The notes under the pieces: model-generated
What the model was told of the DNA's origin: nothing
The model's input: the letters and a program-made list of their open reading frames with translations, nothing else
The model's database searches: none
Made by a program: the position numbers and the translations under genes
Assembly (NCBI GenBank): GCA_017458825.1
Contig: JAFSZX010000007.1
Coordinates: forward strand, 1 to 46,160
DNA length: 46,160 nt
Source of the DNA: Oscillospiraceae bacterium
Lineage (GTDB): Bacteria; Bacillota; Clostridia; Oscillospirales; Oscillospiraceae
Direction: 5' to 3'
Shown here: positions 13,852 to 39,722 of the stretch, in pieces
Layout of the letters: the number at the start of each line of letters is the position of its first letter
Position numbering within the stretch: the first letter of the stretch is position 1

Positions 13852-14586
13852 ATGGATAAAGAAGAACAAAACGCCATCGGCGGGGATTGTGAGAAACCGG
13901 CGGTCCACGCGCGCAAGAACCGACCGGCGAGGTGGTGGCTGATCCTGATCGGCGCGGCGGTATGCGCGCTTTTGTTACTGGACGGCTTTTTCCTGCGGCG
14001 CGGCACATCCGGCACGCCGGAGGGCGGACAGACGGGAAGCGACCGCCCGGTGGTGTATAACGAGACGTCCCGCATGCCGGAAACGGAAGTGGCATATCGC
14101 TCCGACGTTTCCGCCACGCTCATTACCTCCGACGAGCTGACGCAGATCCTGCCGGAGGTGTGGCCGGAGGAGGCGCCGCCGTATCTCTGGGGCAGTGTGA
14201 AGCGATACAGCTGGGGCGACGTGGCGGAAGTGTATCTGGGGTTTCTCTGTAACGATTGGTCTTCCGGCTTGATCACGGTGACGCTTCACCCGGAGGAGAG
14301 CCGCGAGAGCTTTCCTTTGCCGGAGGTTTCCGACGCCGTTGCTGCCGTGGTGGAGGGGCAGGAGGTCACGTTTTATCGTTTCCGACCGGAAAGCGGCGGC
14401 GAATACCTGTACGCGTTCTTTAACTGCCACGGTACGAATTATCGGATAGATACCAACGTATTGTCCGAGCAGAACGAAGAGGCGGCGGAGCGGGACTTTT
14501 TCCAAACGGCGGTCTGTTTGCTCCGCAGTGCCCGTGACGTGGATTTCACCTCCTGGTCACGGATCGTGACCAGCGCTACACGGTGA
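13852..14586 (+). CDS. Membrane-anchored protein of unknown function
   Basis: Protein of 244 residues, not recognised. A cytoplasmic N-terminus with basic residues just before the membrane is followed by a single helix at about 28-46. The rest, including a short Gly/Thr linker, should lie outside the cell. It has no cysteine pair or obvious catalytic motif, and a folded beta-rich domain is plausible. AAAGGAG precedes the ATG and there is a good promoter, so it is expressed alone. Directly after its stop codon lie a terminator and copy 1 of the 195-base repeat element. Confidence 0.7.
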   Translation: MDKEEQNAIGGDCEKPAVHARKNRPARWWLILIGAAVCALLLLDGFFLRRGTSGTPEGGQTGSDRPVVYNETSRMPETEVAYRSDVSATLITSDELTQILPEVWPEEAPPYLWGSVKRYSWGDVAEVYLGFLCNDWSSGLITVTLHPEESRESFPLPEVSDAVAAVVEGQEVTFYRFRPESGGEYLYAFFNCHGTNYRIDTNVLSEQNEEAAERDFFQTAVCLLRSARDVDFTSWSRIVTSATR

Positions 14587-14600
14587 GGAAAAGAAGAATA

Positions 14601-14636
14601 TAAAACGCTCCGGCGGGATTCCGCCGGAGCGTTTTT
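14601..14636 (+). terminator. Intrinsic terminator, left copy of a duplicated pair
   Basis: GC-rich perfect hairpin (CGCTCCGGCGG... arms) with A-run and T5. It ends the 244-residue gene. The same 36 bases recur without change at 14842-14877, on the other side of repeat-element copy 1. Confidence 0.9.
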
Positions 14637-14641
14637 GAGAC

Positions 14642-14836
14642 TGTCAAAAAAACGGCTTTGCCGTTTTTTGACAAAAGGGTTGCAGCCTACTGCGCGCACT
14701 CATTGTGCGCCAGTGGCGCACAATTCGCACACTTCGTAGTCTGAGCGGTGTCATTTGCCACGTACACGCCGCGGCAAATGACGATTTCATATCTTCGCGC
14801 CGTGCGCGACGCGAACTCTGCGAGGCTTTTTTGACA
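14642..14836 (+). mobile_element. 195-base palindromic repeat element, copy 1 (possible MITE-like element)
   Basis: This non-coding stretch holds one copy of a 195-base element whose second copy is at 22582-22776 in opposite orientation. The copies are about 92% identical by eye. Ends: TGTCAAAAAA (14642) and TTTTTTGACA (to 14836), with GAGAC conserved just outside the left end. Four hairpins follow each other: 14642-14673 (14-bp stem, itself terminator-like, with one extra A), 14702-14724 (11-bp stem, 1-base centre), 14750-14782 (10-bp stem), and 14794-14815. No protein is encoded. The element lies between identical 36-base terminator copies. A transposase acting in trans is inferred, not seen. 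Confidence 0.75.
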
Positions 14837-14841
14837 CGCTG

Positions 14842-14877
14842 TAAAACGCTCCGGCGGGATTCCGCCGGAGCGTTTTT
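14842..14877. terminator. Intrinsic terminator, right copy of a duplicated pair
   Basis: Identical over 36 bases to 14601-14636. On the minus strand it follows the ygfK stop by about 26 bases and so also serves ygfK. Five bases (14837-14841) separate it from the end of the repeat element. Confidence 0.9.
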
Positions 14878-14903: not shown

Positions 14904-17849
14904 TTACACAAGGAGATACGCATAGCGTTTCTTTACGGTCAGCAACAGCGTTTCCAGTTCTGACGGAAGATCGTTCACGCCCAGCAGATCGTATTCCTTC
15001 GGCTCACCGAAGGTGCGCACCAGCACGCGCCGCTCGTCCAGGAAGACGGCGCCCGCGTTCTTGGAATCCGCCAGATCTTCGACACAGGCGAAGAGCGTGA
15101 ATTTATCACGACTGGGCGCGGAGTCATAGGGGCAGAAAGCGGTGCAGTTGCCGCACTCGTTGCAAAGACGATCGATATGGAGGATCTGACGCCGCCCGTC
15201 GGACAGGGTAACGGATACGTTGGCGCGGTTGGGACAGGAGTCCACGCAGTTTTCGCACACCGTACTGCACTGGAGACACCGCTCGCCCTCGCAGGGGGCT
15301 TTGGCGCAGAGGAACCCCTTGCGCGCCGACGCCTCGGCGGCGGTGACGCGCGCCGCGGAGGGGATCTCATAGGTGTAATCCCGGCCGATGACCTCACGGG
15401 CAAAGGCGGCGGCATCGGCAATACCTTCTACCACGGTGGCAGGACCGCGTCGGGCGTCGCCCGCGGCGTATACGCCGGAGAGGTTGGTTTGGAACGCCGG
15501 TCTGCCCCGACGGTCGGTCTCGACGCCGTTTGCCCGGAGCAGGGCGCTGTCCACCTGCTCGCCTACGGCGGAGATCACCAGATCGCAGGGAATGTCAAAG
15601 AGCTCGCCGGTACCCACAGGGGAGCGGCGACCGGTTTCATCCGGCTCGCCCAGCACCATCTTTTCACAGCTCAGCACGCCGTCATGCTGGCGCACCGGCG
15701 CGGCAAGCTCGGCAAATTCCACGCCGTCCGCCATTGCCAGCGCAAGCTCATGCTCCTCGGCGGGCATGTACTTTTTCGTGCGGCGATAGACAATGGTCAC
15801 ACGCTGTGCGCCGCTGCGTTTTGCCAGCCGCGCCGCGTCCATGGCGGTATTGCCGCCGCCGACCACCGCCACGTTACCGCCAACGCCGATGGCGCCGGAC
15901 TTCACGCCCTGCATCCAGCCGATCACACCGGCCACGTCGCCGGGGATCTCCAGACGACCGGCCTGCCACGCGCCGGTGGCAAAGAGGATATGGGTATAGC
16001 CAGCGTCCTTCAGCTCGTTCACAGAGGGCGCCGGTGCGCCGCAACGGATGGTAACGCCCAGTTTTTTAAGGAACGACACGTCCTTTTCAATAGCCTCGTC
16101 GCTGATGCGGAAGGCGGGGATCACGTGGCGCACCACGCCGCCCAGAGAGGCTTGCCGCTCAAAGATCGTCACCGCCACGCCGGCGCGGGCGAGGAAATAC
16201 GCCGCCGCCATGCCGGTAGGACCGCCGCCGATCACAGCGGCTTTTTTGCCCGCCACAGGCGCGCCGGGCTGTAAGGCCGCCAGCACCGCCTCGTAGCCGC
16301 GCTCCGCCGCCAACAGCTTCGTATCACGGATCCGTACCGACTCCTCATAGAAGTTACGGGTACACTTGTTCTGACAGCGATGGGCGCAGATGGTGCCGGT
16401 GATGAAGGGCAGGGGATTGCGCTCCATAATGAGCTTGAGCGCCGGCGCGTACAGACCCTTGCGGCACAGCTCCACGTATTCGGGGATGTCCTGCTCGATG
16501 GGACAGCCGCCCTTGCACGGCGCGCTGAAGCAGTCGGTCCAAGGCACGCCCAGCGTGCTCTTGCGCCGGGGCAGAGGTTTGACGCTCTTACGGTAGTGGG
16601 GCTCCTCACGGCAGGAAAGTGCCAGCGATTCCACCGCTTCCACGTCAACGCCCGCAAATTCTGTAAAGGGAATATCCTTTACGGAGTCCGCCATCTGGCG
16701 CAGGCGGTTATAGCCGCCGGGTTTCAAGATGGTGGTGGCAACGGTGATGGGCCAGATACCGGCGGCGAAGAGCTTCGAGGCGCTGAACGCGTCGGCGCCG
16801 CCGGCGTAGGAAAGGCGCAGCCTGCCGTCGAACTGACGGCTGATCCGGCGGCACATCTCCATTGTCAGAGGAAAGAGGGATCTGCCGGACATATACATTT
16901 CGCTTCCCGGCAACTCGCCGCGTGTGGTGTCCACCGGAAAGGTGTTGGACAGCTTCAACCCGAAGCTCAAACCCTCCGACGACGCCAGCGATTCCAAACG
17001 CTCAAACATGGGCACCGCGTCGCTCCACTGAAGGTCTTCCCGGAAATGATGATCGTCAAACACCACGTAATCGTAGCCCATGGAATCGAGAATGGAACGC
17101 GCCGTTTCGTAGCCTAAAATGGTGGGGTTGCACTTGACAAAGGTGTGCAGGTGCTTTTCCCGAATGAGGTAGGAGGCAATACGCTCGATCTCCTGGGGCG
17201 GACAGCCGTGGAGCGTGGAGAGTGTCACCGAACGGCTGACGCAGGGGGAAATGGCGTTGATGTAGTCGGTATGGGCAGGGAAGAGGCGGCGCAGTACGGC
17301 GAGGCACTCACAGAAGATCGCCGTGGAGGAGGCGTCCTTCATGCCTTCGATATACGCGTCGATCTTCGCGCCGCGGATGCCGTCCAGATCGTAGCCCACG
17401 GACATATTGAACACGAAACCGTCCGGCGAGCCAAGGCCGTACACATGGCTGAAGATCTTCAAGGCGCACCACGCCTTGATATATTCCTCCATCGCCTGGG
17501 GTACGGTCAGCTCGGTGGACCATTCCTGGTTATAGCCCTCGTCGTCCGCCAGAATGCAGGGGCGCGGCACACACGCCGCCAGCTCCGCACCGTCCATCTT
17601 CTGCACCGTTTTCAGCTCGAAGAACCGGGCGCCGGCAAAGTAGGCGGCGATGATGTTCTGCGCCATCTGGCTGTTGGGACCGGCGGCGGGACCGAACGGC
17701 GTTTCAATCGTTTCACCGAACAGGGGAAGCGTTCTCCCGTCGCCGCGGAAGGGTTTGCGCACGCCGAAAAGCGTACCGTCGGCGGCGTATTCCGCCAGCG
17801 CCCAGTTCATCAGCGAGGCAAAGGACAGAGGCGTCATTTTCTCGGACAT
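14904..17849 (-). CDS. ygfK: YgfK-type oxidoreductase (putative selenate reductase subunit)
   Basis: Protein of 981 residues. Residues 1-about 420 resemble a dihydroorotate-dehydrogenase-type flavin domain. Residues 430-500 carry GltD-like iron-sulfur cysteines (C440, C445, C449, C488, C492, C496). Then come an FAD site (G-G-G-P-T-G, 541-546) and a second NAD(P)-type site (V-G-G-G-N-T-A). The C-terminus has ferredoxin-like cysteine clusters (C-L-Q-C, C-E-N-C, C-N-E-C-G-N-C). YgfK proteins accompany selenium-dependent molybdenum hydroxylases and ssnA in anaerobic purine and urate degradation; the selenate-reductase name is historic. AAAGGAG precedes the ATG. It starts 18 bases after ssnA and shares its transcript. 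Confidence 0.93.
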   Translation of the reverse strand: MSEKMTPLSFASLMNWALAEYAADGTLFGVRKPFRGDGRTLPLFGETIETPFGPAAGPNSQMAQNIIAAYFAGARFFELKTVQKMDGAELAACVPRPCILADDEGYNQEWSTELTVPQAMEEYIKAWCALKIFSHVYGLGSPDGFVFNMSVGYDLDGIRGAKIDAYIEGMKDASSTAIFCECLAVLRRLFPAHTDYINAISPCVSRSVTLSTLHGCPPQEIERIASYLIREKHLHTFVKCNPTILGYETARSILDSMGYDYVVFDDHHFREDLQWSDAVPMFERLESLASSEGLSFGLKLSNTFPVDTTRGELPGSEMYMSGRSLFPLTMEMCRRISRQFDGRLRLSYAGGADAFSASKLFAAGIWPITVATTILKPGGYNRLRQMADSVKDIPFTEFAGVDVEAVESLALSCREEPHYRKSVKPLPRRKSTLGVPWTDCFSAPCKGGCPIEQDIPEYVELCRKGLYAPALKLIMERNPLPFITGTICAHRCQNKCTRNFYEESVRIRDTKLLAAERGYEAVLAALQPGAPVAGKKAAVIGGGPTGMAAAYFLARAGVAVTIFERQASLGGVVRHVIPAFRISDEAIEKDVSFLKKLGVTIRCGAPAPSVNELKDAGYTHILFATGAWQAGRLEIPGDVAGVIGWMQGVKSGAIGVGGNVAVVGGGNTAMDAARLAKRSGAQRVTIVYRRTKKYMPAEEHELALAMADGVEFAELAAPVRQHDGVLSCEKMVLGEPDETGRRSPVGTGELFDIPCDLVISAVGEQVDSALLRANGVETDRRGRPAFQTNLSGVYAAGDARRGPATVVEGIADAAAFAREVIGRDYTYEIPSAARVTAAEASARKGFLCAKAPCEGERCLQCSTVCENCVDSCPNRANVSVTLSDGRRQILHIDRLCNECGNCTAFCPYDSAPSRDKFTLFACVEDLADSKNAGAVFLDERRVLVRTFGEPKEYDLLGVNDLPSELETLLLTVKKRYAYLLV

Positions 17850-19211: not shown

Positions 19212-19338
19212 AGCGATACCCTCCTTGTAATAAAAAATGTTTCAAATCCTGGCGGATCTGAAACACTGGGGCTTGCGCCCAGTGATAGTTGCAGCCCGTG
19301 CGCGAAGCACTTCGTTACAGCTACCGGTATTCGGTTGT
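19212..19338 (-). promoter_or_regulatory. Structured ssnA leader with terminator (candidate riboswitch/attenuator)
   Basis: Read on the minus strand. After the promoter comes a small hairpin (ACCG...CGGT), then a GTAGC...GCTGC-closed arm with an internal GTGC/GCAC hairpin, then CACTGGGC-GCAA-GCCCCAGTG. The final hairpin, TTTCAGATCC/GGATTTGAAA, is followed by CATTTTTT, a standard intrinsic terminator placed between promoter and start codon. CTGGGCG upstream can pair with CGCCAG in the terminator, which would give an alternative fold. It does not match the purine (guanine/adenine), guanidine, ZTP, THF or preQ1 consensus motifs I know. The ligand is unknown; a purine catabolite would fit the operon. 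Confidence 0.6.
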
Positions 19339-21255: not shown

Positions 21256-21407
21256 CGCCGCTCCTCCTCTTTTCGCTATTTTGACACAGTATAACACAAA
21301 AAAACAAAAAAGAAAAGAGCATTGCAGAGGTTTCCGGGGAAAACTTCATATAGTACGCATGAGTCTGTCAGACGGCGGAAAAGACATCTGTGGAGGAGGG
21401 AAGGACA

Positions 21408-22544
21408 GTGCGGCGTTTTTTGGGCAGTCTACGGCGGCAGTCCGATCCGATCCTGTTGGCGCTCTGCTCCGCCGCCACGGCGTTCGGACTTGTGATGATC
21501 GCAAGCGCCACGCGGTATCTGGAAACCCGGAGCTACGTGCTGATCCAGCTTGTGGCGGCGGCGATCGGCGTGGGGGCGTATATGCTCTTTTCCGCGCTGG
21601 ACGTCAGGGAGCTTTCCGGAGGCTGGAAATGGCTGACGCTTGCCGGCACGGTGCTGATCGCGCTCCTTTTTACGCCGCTGGGAGTCGGCGCGGGCGGCAA
21701 TCGGGCCTGGATCAGCATACCGGGCGTTCCGGTAAATCTCCAGCCGGCGGAGCCGATAAAACTGCTGTTTATTCTGGTGCTGGCACGCCAGCTTACGTGG
21801 ATGCGGCAGGAAAAAACGATCCCGCGGTTTCGCAGGGTGCTGTTGCCGGTCGGACATCTGCTGGGTTTGACGGGGCTGTATTACGCCGCCTCCGGCGATA
21901 TGGGCAGTACGCTGGTGTATGTGGTGATCTTTCTCTGTATGGCGTACGCCGCCGGCGTGAAAGGCCGCTGGTTTGCACTCGCCGGCGCGCTGGCGGGCGC
22001 AGGGTGTTATGCGCTGTGGAAAGCGGACGTGATCCGCCCCTATATGAAAGAGCGTTTTTTGATTCTGCTGGATCGCGAGATGGATCCTCTGGGCGTGGGA
22101 TGGCACCAAAATCGCAGTCTTCTGGCGCTGGGCAGTGGAGGGCTGACCGGACAGGGACTGTTCCGCGGCACCCAGACCCAAAGTGAATACAGCAACAGCT
22201 TGCCGGCGCGGCATACGGATTTTATCTTCTCCGCCATCGGCGAGGAGCTGGGCATGATCGGGTGTGTGGCGGTGCTGCTTTTGTTGAGCGCTATCGTGAT
22301 ACGGTGCTTCGTGGCGGCGTATCGCGCCAAGACGCCGCTGGAGACTTACGTATGCGTAGGAGTGGCGGCGACGCTGATGTTCCAGACGGCGGTAAACGTG
22401 GGGATGTGTCTGTTTTTGATGCCGGTCATCGGTTTGACACTGCCGTTTGTCAGCTACGGCGGCTCGTCGCTGGTGGCGCTGTTCGCGGCGGCGGGCATGG
22501 TGTCGGGGATCCATAAACGCTCCTTGCAGGAACGGCTGCGGTGA
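21408..22544 (+). CDS. FtsW/RodA/SpoVE-family peptidoglycan glycosyltransferase
   Basis: Integral membrane protein of 378 residues with about ten membrane helices. SEDS-family signatures are present: N-R-A-W-I, L-Q-P-A-E-P-I-K-L (the usual Q-P-S-E with Ala for Ser), H-T-D-F-I-F-S-A-I-G-E-E-L-G, and near the end F-V-S-Y-G-G-S-S-L. These enzymes polymerise lipid II during elongation, division or spore cortex synthesis. Which of the three roles applies cannot be told; the neighbours ddl and murF fit wall synthesis in general. The GTG at 21408 is preferred over 21390 because GGAGGG lies just before it. A terminator and repeat-element copy 2 follow the stop codon. Confidence 0.9.
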   Translation: MRRFLGSLRRQSDPILLALCSAATAFGLVMIASATRYLETRSYVLIQLVAAAIGVGAYMLFSALDVRELSGGWKWLTLAGTVLIALLFTPLGVGAGGNRAWISIPGVPVNLQPAEPIKLLFILVLARQLTWMRQEKTIPRFRRVLLPVGHLLGLTGLYYAASGDMGSTLVYVVIFLCMAYAAGVKGRWFALAGALAGAGCYALWKADVIRPYMKERFLILLDREMDPLGVGWHQNRSLLALGSGGLTGQGLFRGTQTQSEYSNSLPARHTDFIFSAIGEELGMIGCVAVLLLLSAIVIRCFVAAYRAKTPLETYVCVGVAATLMFQTAVNVGMCLFLMPVIGLTLPFVSYGGSSLVALFAAAGMVSGIHKRSLQERLR

Positions 22545-22549
22545 ATGAA

Positions 22550-22583
22550 AAAAGACCTGCCCGGGGCAGGTCTTTTTTGGTTG
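22550..22583 (+). terminator. Intrinsic terminator, left copy of a duplicated pair
   Basis: Hairpin AAAAGACCTGCC/GGCAGGTCTTTT plus TGGTTG. It ends the FtsW-like gene. The same 34 bases recur with one difference at 22782-22815, beyond repeat-element copy 2. Confidence 0.9.
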
Positions 22584-22776
22584 TCAAAAAAGCCTCGCTT
22601 ACTTTCGCGCCGCACACGGCGCGAAGATATTAAATTGTCATTTGCCGCGGCGTGTACGTGGCAAATGACACCGCTCAGACTACGAAGTGTGCGAATGGTG
22701 CGCCGCTGGCGCACAATGAGTGCGCGCAGTAGGCTGCAACCCTTTTGTCAAAAAACGGCTTTGCCGTTTTTTGACA
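22582..22776 (-). mobile_element. 195-base palindromic repeat element, copy 2 (inverted relative to copy 1)
   Basis: This fills most of the otherwise gene-free stretch 22545-22907. It is exactly 195 bases from TGTCAAAAAA (22582) to TTTTTTGACA (22776), with GTCTC (22777-22781) matching the GAGAC outside the other copy. The same four hairpins are present, and the one next to AAGATATTAAA has a perfect 9-bp stem here. The terminal hairpin has loop AAA where copy 1 has TTT when both are read in the same direction. The element lies between near-identical 34-base terminator copies. No coding frame is credible. Confidence 0.75.
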
Positions 22777-22781
22777 GTCTC

Positions 22782-22815
22782 AAAAGACCTGCCCGGGGCA
22801 GGTCTTTTCTGGTTG
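22782..22815 (+). terminator. Intrinsic terminator, right copy of a duplicated pair
   Basis: 34 bases matching 22550-22583 except for C instead of T in the T-run. It still forms the full stem. The ddl promoter follows at once. Confidence 0.88.
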
Positions 22816-22841: not shown

Positions 22842-22907
22842 ATACTGGAATGATCAGGCAAAGCAGGCAGTTTTTGCCGCGCCGTCTTGAAAAAGGGGTC
22901 TTGCAGA

Positions 22908-23969
22908 ATGAAAATCGTAGTTTTAGCCGGCGGCTTGAGTACCGAACGGAACGTATCGCTGGTGAGCGGAACGGGTGTGTGCCGCGCACTGCGCCAGCGC
23001 GGACATCAGGCGGTTCTGGTGGATCTTTTTATGGGACTGGAAGCCTACGACGGCGCGCCGGAGGATATTTTCGACGCGCCGGACGGTCTGTGCCGTGACG
23101 TGGCGGTGTCCTCCGCCGCACCGGATCTGGCGGCTGTGCGGGCGCTTCGGAAAGAGCAGGGGCCCTCGGTGCTGGGAAAAGGCGTATTGGCGGTATGCGC
23201 CATGGCGGACGTGGTGTTCCTGGCGCTCCACGGCGAGAGCGGCGAGGACGGACGGATTCAGGCGGCGCTGGATCTGCTGGGCATCCCCTATACCGGCTCC
23301 GGCTACGTCTCCAGCGCCATGGCGATGGATAAATCCATTGCCAAGCGGTTTATGGACAGCGTGGGGATCCGCACGGCGCCGTGGCGCGATCTATACTATA
23401 CCGAGGCGGATATTCCGCGCCTTGCATCGGAACTGCCGGTGCCCTGCGCGGTGAAGATCGTCAACGGCGGCAGCTCCGTGGGCATAGAATTGCCGGATAC
23501 AAGACAGGAGCTGGAGGCGGCGCTTCACAGCGTACTGCGTTACGGCAATCACGTAGTAGTGGAGCAGAAGATCCGCGGCAGGGAAATGACGGTGGCGGTG
23601 CTGGGCGAGCGGTATCTGCCGGCGGTGGAGATCCGTCCCAACGGCGAGTATTTCAACTATGAGACCAAGTACCAGTCCGGCGGCGCCACGGAGCTGTGTC
23701 CCGCGCCGATTTCGGAGGATATCTGGCGCCAGATGGGCGAGGCGGCGCTGAAACTGCATAAGGCACTGGGATTGAGCGTCTATTCCCGCAGTGATTTTAT
23801 TCTGGACGATCAGGGGCGGGCGTGGTGCCTTGAGGTGAACACGTTACCGGGTATGACGCCCACGAGTCTTGTGCCGAAAGAGGCGGCGGCGGTGGGAATG
23901 GATTACGGCACGCTGTGCGAAGAGATCGTGCGATTGTCGCTGGCGCAGAGAAAGGCGGAGCGGAGATGA
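22908..23969 (+). CDS. ddl: D-alanine--D-alanine ligase
   Basis: Protein of 353 residues, an ATP-grasp ligase that makes the D-Ala-D-Ala dipeptide for peptidoglycan. Motifs: V-L-A-G-G-L-S-T-E-R-N-V-S near the start, H-G-E-S-G-E-D-G, a Y-T-G-S-G segment, N-G-G-S-S-V-G-I, and the metal-binding W-C-L-E-V-N-T-L-P-G-M-T. The ATG at 22908 gives the standard N-terminus; AAGGGG lies about nine bases upstream. The stop overlaps the murF start (ATGA). First gene of a long operon to 32500. The Tyr residue in the Y-T-G-S-G region suggests ordinary D-Ala specificity (inference). Confidence 0.95.
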   Translation: MKIVVLAGGLSTERNVSLVSGTGVCRALRQRGHQAVLVDLFMGLEAYDGAPEDIFDAPDGLCRDVAVSSAAPDLAAVRALRKEQGPSVLGKGVLAVCAMADVVFLALHGESGEDGRIQAALDLLGIPYTGSGYVSSAMAMDKSIAKRFMDSVGIRTAPWRDLYYTEADIPRLASELPVPCAVKIVNGGSSVGIELPDTRQELEAALHSVLRYGNHVVVEQKIRGREMTVAVLGERYLPAVEIRPNGEYFNYETKYQSGGATELCPAPISEDIWRQMGEAALKLHKALGLSVYSRSDFILDDQGRAWCLEVNTLPGMTPTSLVPKEAAAVGMDYGTLCEEIVRLSLAQRKAERR

Positions 23970-39147: not shown

Positions 39148-39170
39148 TGGCACTGCATCAATACCGGATG

Positions 39171-39722
39171 TTACAGCAGGGGACCCCACTGCTCACCGGA
39201 GCTGTCACCGCTGCCGGAGCCGCTGGAACTGCCGGAACTGCCGGAGCTGCCGGAACTGCCGGAGCTGCCGGAACTGCCGGAGCCGCTGGAACTGCCGGAG
39301 CTGCCGGAACCGCCGGAACTGCCGGAGCCGCTGGAACTGCCGGAGTTGCCGGAGCTGCCGGAGCCACTGGAACCGCTGGAACCGCCGGAGCCGCTGGAGC
39401 CGCTGGAGCCACTGGAGCCGCCGGAGCCACTGGAAGGCGTGTTACTGTCAAGATCTTCCAGGTCAATGGTCGGCTCATCATTAGGATCCCCCACCGTCAG
39501 GCCGCCTTCGTTGGAGGAATCGGTTCCGCTCTGCTTTCCGTCGTCCTGCTTCTGACCGTCCTCGGTCTGGACCTGCTCGGCCTGTTGGGGATCGTCAGTG
39601 ATATCGGACGAACCGCCCTTATCCTTATTCTTATTAGCCGTTACAATCACAGCGGCCAAAATTGCCGCCGCTACCAGGCAAGCCACGATAATGGCAACAA
39701 TCCAAACAGCTTTCTTTTTCAT
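39171..39722 (-). CDS. Membrane-anchored protein with long Ser/Gly repeat tail
   Basis: Protein of 183 residues, family unknown. M-K-K-K, one membrane helix (about 6-28), an acidic, Gln-rich linker (to about 95), then about 80 residues of almost pure Ser and Gly with repeated S-S-G / G-S-S units, ending E-Q-W-G-P-L-L. The tail should lie outside the cell as a flexible spacer or an adhesin-like brush. There is no LPXTG signal. AGGAGG precedes the ATG at 39720-39722; the frame upstream reads non-coding. The promoter is a near-consensus sigma-A one. Confidence 0.75.
   Translation of the reverse strand: MKKKAVWIVAIIVACLVAAAILAAVIVTANKNKDKGGSSDITDDPQQAEQVQTEDGQKQDDGKQSGTDSSNEGGLTVGDPNDEPTIDLEDLDSNTPSSGSGGSSGSSGSSGSGGSSGSSGSGSSGNSGSSSGSGSSGGSGSSGSSSGSGSSGSSGSSGSSGSSGSSSGSGSGDSSGEQWGPLL
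39200..39440. repeat. Imperfect tandem repeats inside the Ser/Gly-rich gene
   Basis: On the plus strand, 9-base units of the form CTGCCGGAR recur, with CCGCTGGAA and CCGGAGCCG variants. They encode Ser-Gly runs on the minus strand. Such repeats are prone to slippage, so length may vary between strains. Confidence 0.8.

Follow-up and report, generated by a model that had tools for sequence, protein, structure and literature searches.

The window analysed here is a stretch of 46,160 nucleotides from an Oscillospiraceae bacterium, covering positions 1 to 46,160 of contig JAFSZX010000007.1. It carries two copies of what is most likely a short mobile element, each beside a gene and enclosed by a repeated terminator hairpin (Table 1). 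At copy 1, comparison of the window with itself recovers an exact 36-base repeat, 14601-14636 being identical to 14842-14877. The first-pass annotation had described an unchanged 36-base terminator on both sides of a block, and its coordinates are reproduced to the base. It had also given the block a length of 195 bases. A part of that length does run from TGTCAAAAAA (14642) to TTTTTTGACA (14836), but the true spacing between the terminators is 205 bases, the outermost bases beyond the 195-base part being GAGAC and CGCTG. An Rfam scan of the window at gathering thresholds matched the ssnA RNA alone, away from the element. Group IIC introns insert at terminators; a group IIC intron or a known RNA family was considered for the block and rejected, the scan having returned no group II ribozyme in the window.

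Table 1. Features of the window around the two element copies, with two features elsewhere in the window.
Feature	Position	Strand	Remarks
Upstream ORF	13852..14586	+	Stop 14 bases ahead of the copy 1 terminator; no Pfam match
Terminator hairpin, left copy of the 36-bp target duplication, copy 1	14601..14636		Exact repeat; single in the sister genome G017
205-bp MITE, copy 1	14637..14841	+	A-end GAGACTGTCAAAAAA on the left, B-end TTTTTTGACACGCTG on the right
Hairpin H1 (A-end)	14642..14673		Contains the terminal repeat and its complement; 4 pairs changed on both sides
Hairpin H2	14703..14723		5 pairs changed on both sides
Hairpin H3	14750..14782		Stem mostly swapped between species, pairing kept; 10 pairs changed on both sides
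Hairpin H4	14794..14815		Folds in copy 1; partial in the consensus structure, 0 two-sided changes
Terminator hairpin, right copy of the target duplication, copy 1	14842..14877		Exact repeat
Convergent gene, pyridine nucleotide-disulphide oxidoreductase with 4Fe-4S domains	14904..17849	-
ssnA RNA (RF03031)	19283..19330	-	65.8 bits
FtsW/RodA/SpoVE-like gene, upstream of copy 2	21390..22544	+
Terminator hairpin, left, copy 2 (27 bp)	22550..22576		34/35 if extended to 22584
MITE, copy 2	22577..22781	-	95% alike over 169 bases to copy 1
Terminator hairpin, right, copy 2	22782..22808
D-Ala-D-Ala ligase gene, downstream of copy 2	22887..23969	+
Degenerate 9-base tandem repeat	39160..39465

Four hairpins in a row had been proposed inside the block, and all four were located by their coordinates and by folding, with folding z-scores for copy 1 of -4.46 on the plus strand and -5.46 on the minus strand. 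Covariation was followed in an alignment of 34 sequences (A3, which is A2 minus L114 and L050). Among these 34 aligned copies, 19 of the 49 consensus pairs have changed on both sides with the pairing kept, and for each of nine adjacent pairs in H3 the two-sided change is found in 10 to 16 sequences. Because the two-sided changes keep the pairing, H1 to H3 are retained while their sequence turns over. A covariance model of the hairpins had been suggested as a check, and the covariation in this alignment is strong; H4 has no two-sided change and belongs to the consensus structure in part. Compensatory changes of this kind can be produced by selection or by template switching between the arms, and they are therefore not taken as a sign of function.

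Copy 2 lies in the opposite orientation, and the terminator duplicated around it differs from that of copy 1 (27 nt exact, or 34/35 when extended). Its outer 5 bases on the B-end side read TTGGT, the usual form being CAGCn, and TTGGT is similar to the right flank of the target.

The draft genome that holds the window comprises 918 kb in 27 contigs and is 65.5% complete. The element has 41 matches there, spread over 25 loci; the remaining matches are those of inverted parts. We estimate some 20-25 copies, since a contig end truncates 9 of the 25 loci and two such pieces may belong to one copy. Copies that can be read on both sides are mostly flanked by like hairpins, and the hairpin varies from copy to copy. 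By a scripted rule, a hairpin adjoins 34 of the 38 readable flanks in this genome, compared with 42 of 2000 random window positions, and 23 of the 25 loci have at least one hairpin-adjoining flank. At E <= 0.001 the element is matched in 39 of 99 genomes, the source genome included, distributed as 27/32 in the genus and 12/67 elsewhere; several of these matches are short. The search of this genome and its relatives that the first-pass annotation had proposed brought up many copies at many different hairpins. A part corresponding to H3-H4 occurs in other genera, two of its four loci lying in another family, with no recognised MITE ends (L049, L054, L051, L052); in G089 and G066, where 85 and 108 candidates came up at first look, 8 were scored in each. 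One MITE, L132 (G025:C96), is longer by about 65 bases in the H3 loop and is flanked by unlike hairpins.

To follow the flanking repeat beyond the window we compiled 114 loci by script, including 60 further copies among the matches listed. Of the 114, 45 have no recognisable end pair, 69 have ends, and 66 have ends and enough flank. The short-flanked loci L009, L011 and L040 were omitted, L011 carrying a perfect 37-bp duplication. A target duplication passes the score in 42 of the 66 copies among the matches listed, as against 2 of 1304 mismatched flank pairs. When L131, which is another element, is set aside, 41/65 pass, in 37 distinct target clusters among the matches listed; one insertion was seen in two genomes (L006 = L031), and L135 = L140 is probably a second such case. 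Three properties describe the duplicated stretch. First, its length runs from 19 to 37 bp, with a median of 31.5, among the matches listed. Second, it is centred on the dyad of the hairpin to within 2 nt in 42/42 copies among the matches listed, against 117/1000 random intervals put through the same procedure. Third, its length correlates with that of the hairpin (0.69 in the MITE set), and the stretch is not always the full hairpin: A and T tracts often carry the pairing on beyond the cut at either side, for as much as 10 nt. The flanking repeat had been read as an insertion with target duplication, and the score against its control bears that reading out, together with the empty sites described below. 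A terminator belonging to the element itself was rejected, each copy having its own terminator.

Copies with no flanking duplication had been named in advance as evidence against this reading, and in part they exist: 24 of the 66 copies fail the duplication rule among the matches listed. By eye, five of the 24 have diverged or inverted hairpins (L034, L113, L125, L130, L136), five have two unlike hairpins (L038, L111, L142, L148, L149), and 14 have a one-sided hairpin, a remnant, or none. At L130 (G025:C96) the loop of one flanking hairpin is the reverse complement of the other, which looks like an inversion of one of the two. At L164 (G008:C1) the duplicated terminators have diverged, seemingly by paired changes that preserve the stem; such pairing is not seen in the changes at L157 and L159 (all by eye). 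The element excluded above, L131 (G025:C49, ~44-336), has IS1182-type ends, partly masked, and sits inside H1 of a MITE copy; it duplicated the H1 hairpin, so the MITE's own end acts as a target.

To look for empty sites we built queries from 11 insertions, each with its flanks joined over a single copy of the hairpin, and searched 32 genomes of the genus with them. The closest relative, G017, aligns along five of the joined queries: copy 1 at 96% identity, L003 at 92%, L007 at 85%, L005 at 81% and L012 at 79%. At the copy 1 site G017 has one terminator, and the filled site differs from it by the element plus one more 36-base copy. The L003 empty site is as clean as that of copy 1; those of L007, L005 and L012 have diverged further and align less neatly. 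Sites apparently filled in G017 as well are L002 and L006, each with its duplication, and L010, seen from one side only. L004 and L014 yielded no usable counterpart in this search. At the D-Ala-D-Ala ligase gene, 22 of the relatives' 29 loci were inspected by eye, and in 14 of them the end of the FtsW-like gene is followed by a single hairpin and then the ligase gene, the element being absent. The copy 2 site in G017 (L081 / L298, G017:C17:14261-15916) holds another inserted stretch, and only the right half of the terminator remains there. A sister strain with a single terminator had been put forward as the test of insertion, and a relative already carrying both terminators as its refutation; at copy 1 the relative carries one.

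The ends of the element point to a family of transposases. The MITE ends GAGACTGTCAAAAAA / CAGCnTGTCAAAAAA are akin to CAGnCTGTCAAAAAA / CAGnCTGTCAAAGAA of IS elements whose transposases belong to IS1182. Three IS proteins tested score 388-404 bits against the IS1182 profile NF033551 (cut-off 270) and also match PF13751, PF05598 and PF01609. Searches with the PF13751 and NF033551 profiles found no IS1182 transposase in the 65.5%-complete draft genome that holds the window; repeated IS copies are easily lost from incomplete drafts. PF13751 matches occur in 16/99 genomes. Within the genus, a transposase above the cut-off was found in 2/32 genomes, one of the two genes running off its contig. The other, in G011 (L170 / L062, G011:C29), is an open IS1182 frame with a good right end and no recognisable left end; it is perhaps immobile itself and could still move MITEs in trans. 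The ends were examined at eleven transposase loci. L063 and L066 end in cAGnCTGTC(A/G)AAAAA and have a like hairpin on both sides (34 bp and 30 bp, respectively); L068 has a hairpin on the side present in the contig, L069 has unlike hairpins, and L062 and L065 have a right-side hairpin only.

A larger set came from a scan of genome contigs, which gave 80 IS loci, the best among the matches listed, 60 with both ends and 53 with both flanks. They derive mostly from Oscillospiraceae, Lachnospiraceae and more distant Firmicutes, several from complete genomes, and L170, L174, L190 and L193 repeat L062, L065, L068 and L063, respectively. These transposase-bearing elements behave as the MITE does. 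The hairpin is duplicated in 44 of 53 copies among the matches listed (control 0/1043), and 42 of these 44 duplications, again among the matches listed, are centred within 1 nt of the dyad, 37 of them exactly. There are 43 distinct targets among the matches listed, the targets of L217 and L218 being identical. At L177 a 64-bp duplication lies within a 74-bp palindrome. The rule fails in 9/53 copies among the matches listed. For nine copies the left side was sought by means of the right flank, which yielded three more with a duplicated hairpin, in Bacillus, in Alkalithermobacter and, less surely, in Thermoanaerobacter; for L249, one of the three, the left end is doubtful. Two of the failures, L194 and L205 from one complete genome, have a hairpin in common, the pattern to be expected from recombination between copies. 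No shared hairpin emerged when the MITE copies examined were searched in the same way.

Since some duplicated hairpins of the IS set have no T-tract (L173, L184, L191), the target of this IS1182-type MITE is the hairpin rather than the terminator as such. The first-pass annotation had the element recognising terminators; it was right that the hairpin is targeted, not that the terminator as such is. Its suggestion of a non-autonomous element served by an enzyme in trans agrees with the candidate IS1182 family in relatives. Its view of 36 bp as an unusual duplication for a small element needs correction for this family, in which long duplications have precedents: IS1182 target duplications in ISfinder range from 0 to 60 bp.

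We conclude that the block is a 205-bp MITE with no transposase gene and with IS1182-like ends, most likely moved in trans by an IS1182 transposase (probability about 0.87). Movement by that enzyme is what we infer from the elements compared here. Short REP hairpins are moved by a RAYT transposase, which is of the HUH type; a duplicated target speaks for an enzyme of the DDE type. A DDE transposase attaches the element's 3' ends to the two target strands at points offset from each other, leaving gaps that are then filled in by the host. In the mechanism that we consider probable, a palindrome in the target would be extruded as a cruciform, which would bring its two 5' feet side by side at the junction whatever the length of the arms. 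Strand joining would then take place at these two attack points, lying together at the four-way junction. Gap filling would copy the unfolded strands of the hairpin and so duplicate a symmetric stretch of it, usually most or all, and each side of the element would be left with a terminator. Duplications of 19 to 64 bp could arise in this way because the attack points adjoin at the junction; a fixed stagger on a straight duplex would not give them. The geometry of the duplications is our basis for inferring the cruciform step.

The pattern agrees with a published scheme: hairpin duplication figures as pathway b in the possible model for IS1272 drawn by Wan et al. 2017 (PMC5678879, in the text available). 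Our data fit that pathway, in which the folded shape of the target would set the cut sites, and they lend support to a part of the IS1272 model that its authors put forward as a drawing only. More broadly, a large Firmicutes clade of IS1182 elements and their MITEs probably reads the folded shape of the target and not its sequence, with transfer at the 5' feet of the cruciform and a duplication length set by the hairpin.

The same element and enzyme could also act with no cruciform, a transposase dimer reading the inverted repeat as duplex with one arm per subunit. Such a dimer would likewise give dyad-symmetric duplications. We consider it unlikely, given that the sequence of the arms varies between sites and that cuts spaced anywhere from 19 to 64 bp apart seem more than a rigid complex could accommodate on a straight duplex; a stagger of this range that is always symmetric about the palindrome is hard to reach there. 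Less probable still is a different enzyme, with IS1182-like ends arising by convergence. The scarcity of IS1182 transposases in the genus, where 27 of 32 genomes have MITE matches, speaks in its favour, but common ends occur together with a common and unusual hairpin duplication, and in general many genomes are incomplete drafts from which repeated IS are easily lost. Very improbable as the main mode is replacement, in which the target hairpin would be lost and the flanking hairpins would be something else. IS1272, of the same family, does replace hairpins with no target duplication (PMC5678879 and PMC4923244, in the parts available), and some of the copies whose hairpins are unlike, or missing on one side, could have arisen in that way. 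Two like hairpins nevertheless flank 42/66 copies of the MITE set and 44/53 IS copies among the matches listed, and the copy 1 empty site has one; the IS1272 mode is contradicted as the main mode, and single rule-failing copies may be such events. A process without transposition, either local segmental duplication, which the first-pass annotation had named as a refutation, or recombination between terminators, would account for the unit occurring twice in the window at a distance of 8 kb, but its chance is negligible, since nearly every copy has its own, differing hairpin pair around one core and the empty sites are clean.

The MITE and its IS1182 relatives show that a mobile element can insert at the terminator of a gene with the stop signal kept. 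The first-pass annotation had the host gene keep a working terminator by design; the terminator sequence is indeed kept, and the purpose, like terminator function beyond the sequence, was more than this supports. If the mechanism proposed here is right, insertion at a gene end copies the terminator and is near harmless, which could explain the high copy numbers. A target duplication is usually a fixed signature of the transposase. Here its length follows the hairpin of the target itself, a sign that DNA structure at a four-way junction is what is recognised. The 37 MITE and 43 IS target clusters, among the matches listed, supply natural insertions for tests, with several empty sites. They also carry a warning for genome annotation, as doubled terminators may be scars of transposition.

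Among known systems, the IS1202 family makes long target duplications. It resembles the present elements as a group of IS with a strict target, and differs in that the target is of dif type, not a hairpin (see PMC10132070). Bacterial MITEs are alike in being short, intergenic and strongly folding, with terminal inverted repeats; the available text of PMC10969869 describes no duplication set by a hairpin and makes no mention of IS1182 or IS1272, and that of PMC3196728 holds nothing on hairpin targets. Closer are ISCbo5/ISBma2 of the IS1182 family, present in many copies at gene-end hairpins: all insertion sites but one are such hairpins, which the authors take to be likely transcription stops (PMC3098183). 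These are full IS elements, not a MITE, and no hairpin duplication is stated for them in the part of that paper available. Closest is IS1272/TnSha1 of staphylococci, also of the IS1182 family, which targets hairpins with no common sequence, often terminators, and which removes or cuts the hairpin with no duplication, whereas here the hairpin is duplicated (PMC5678879 and PMC4923244, as far as their available text goes). The location of IS1182 elements at hairpins and terminators, and hairpin loss for IS1272, are thus already in print. In the open-licence literature searched, so far as its text was available, whole-hairpin duplication occurs nowhere beyond the model in PMC5678879; what was earlier met only as a proposal is observed here in the MITE and in its transposase-bearing IS1182 relatives.
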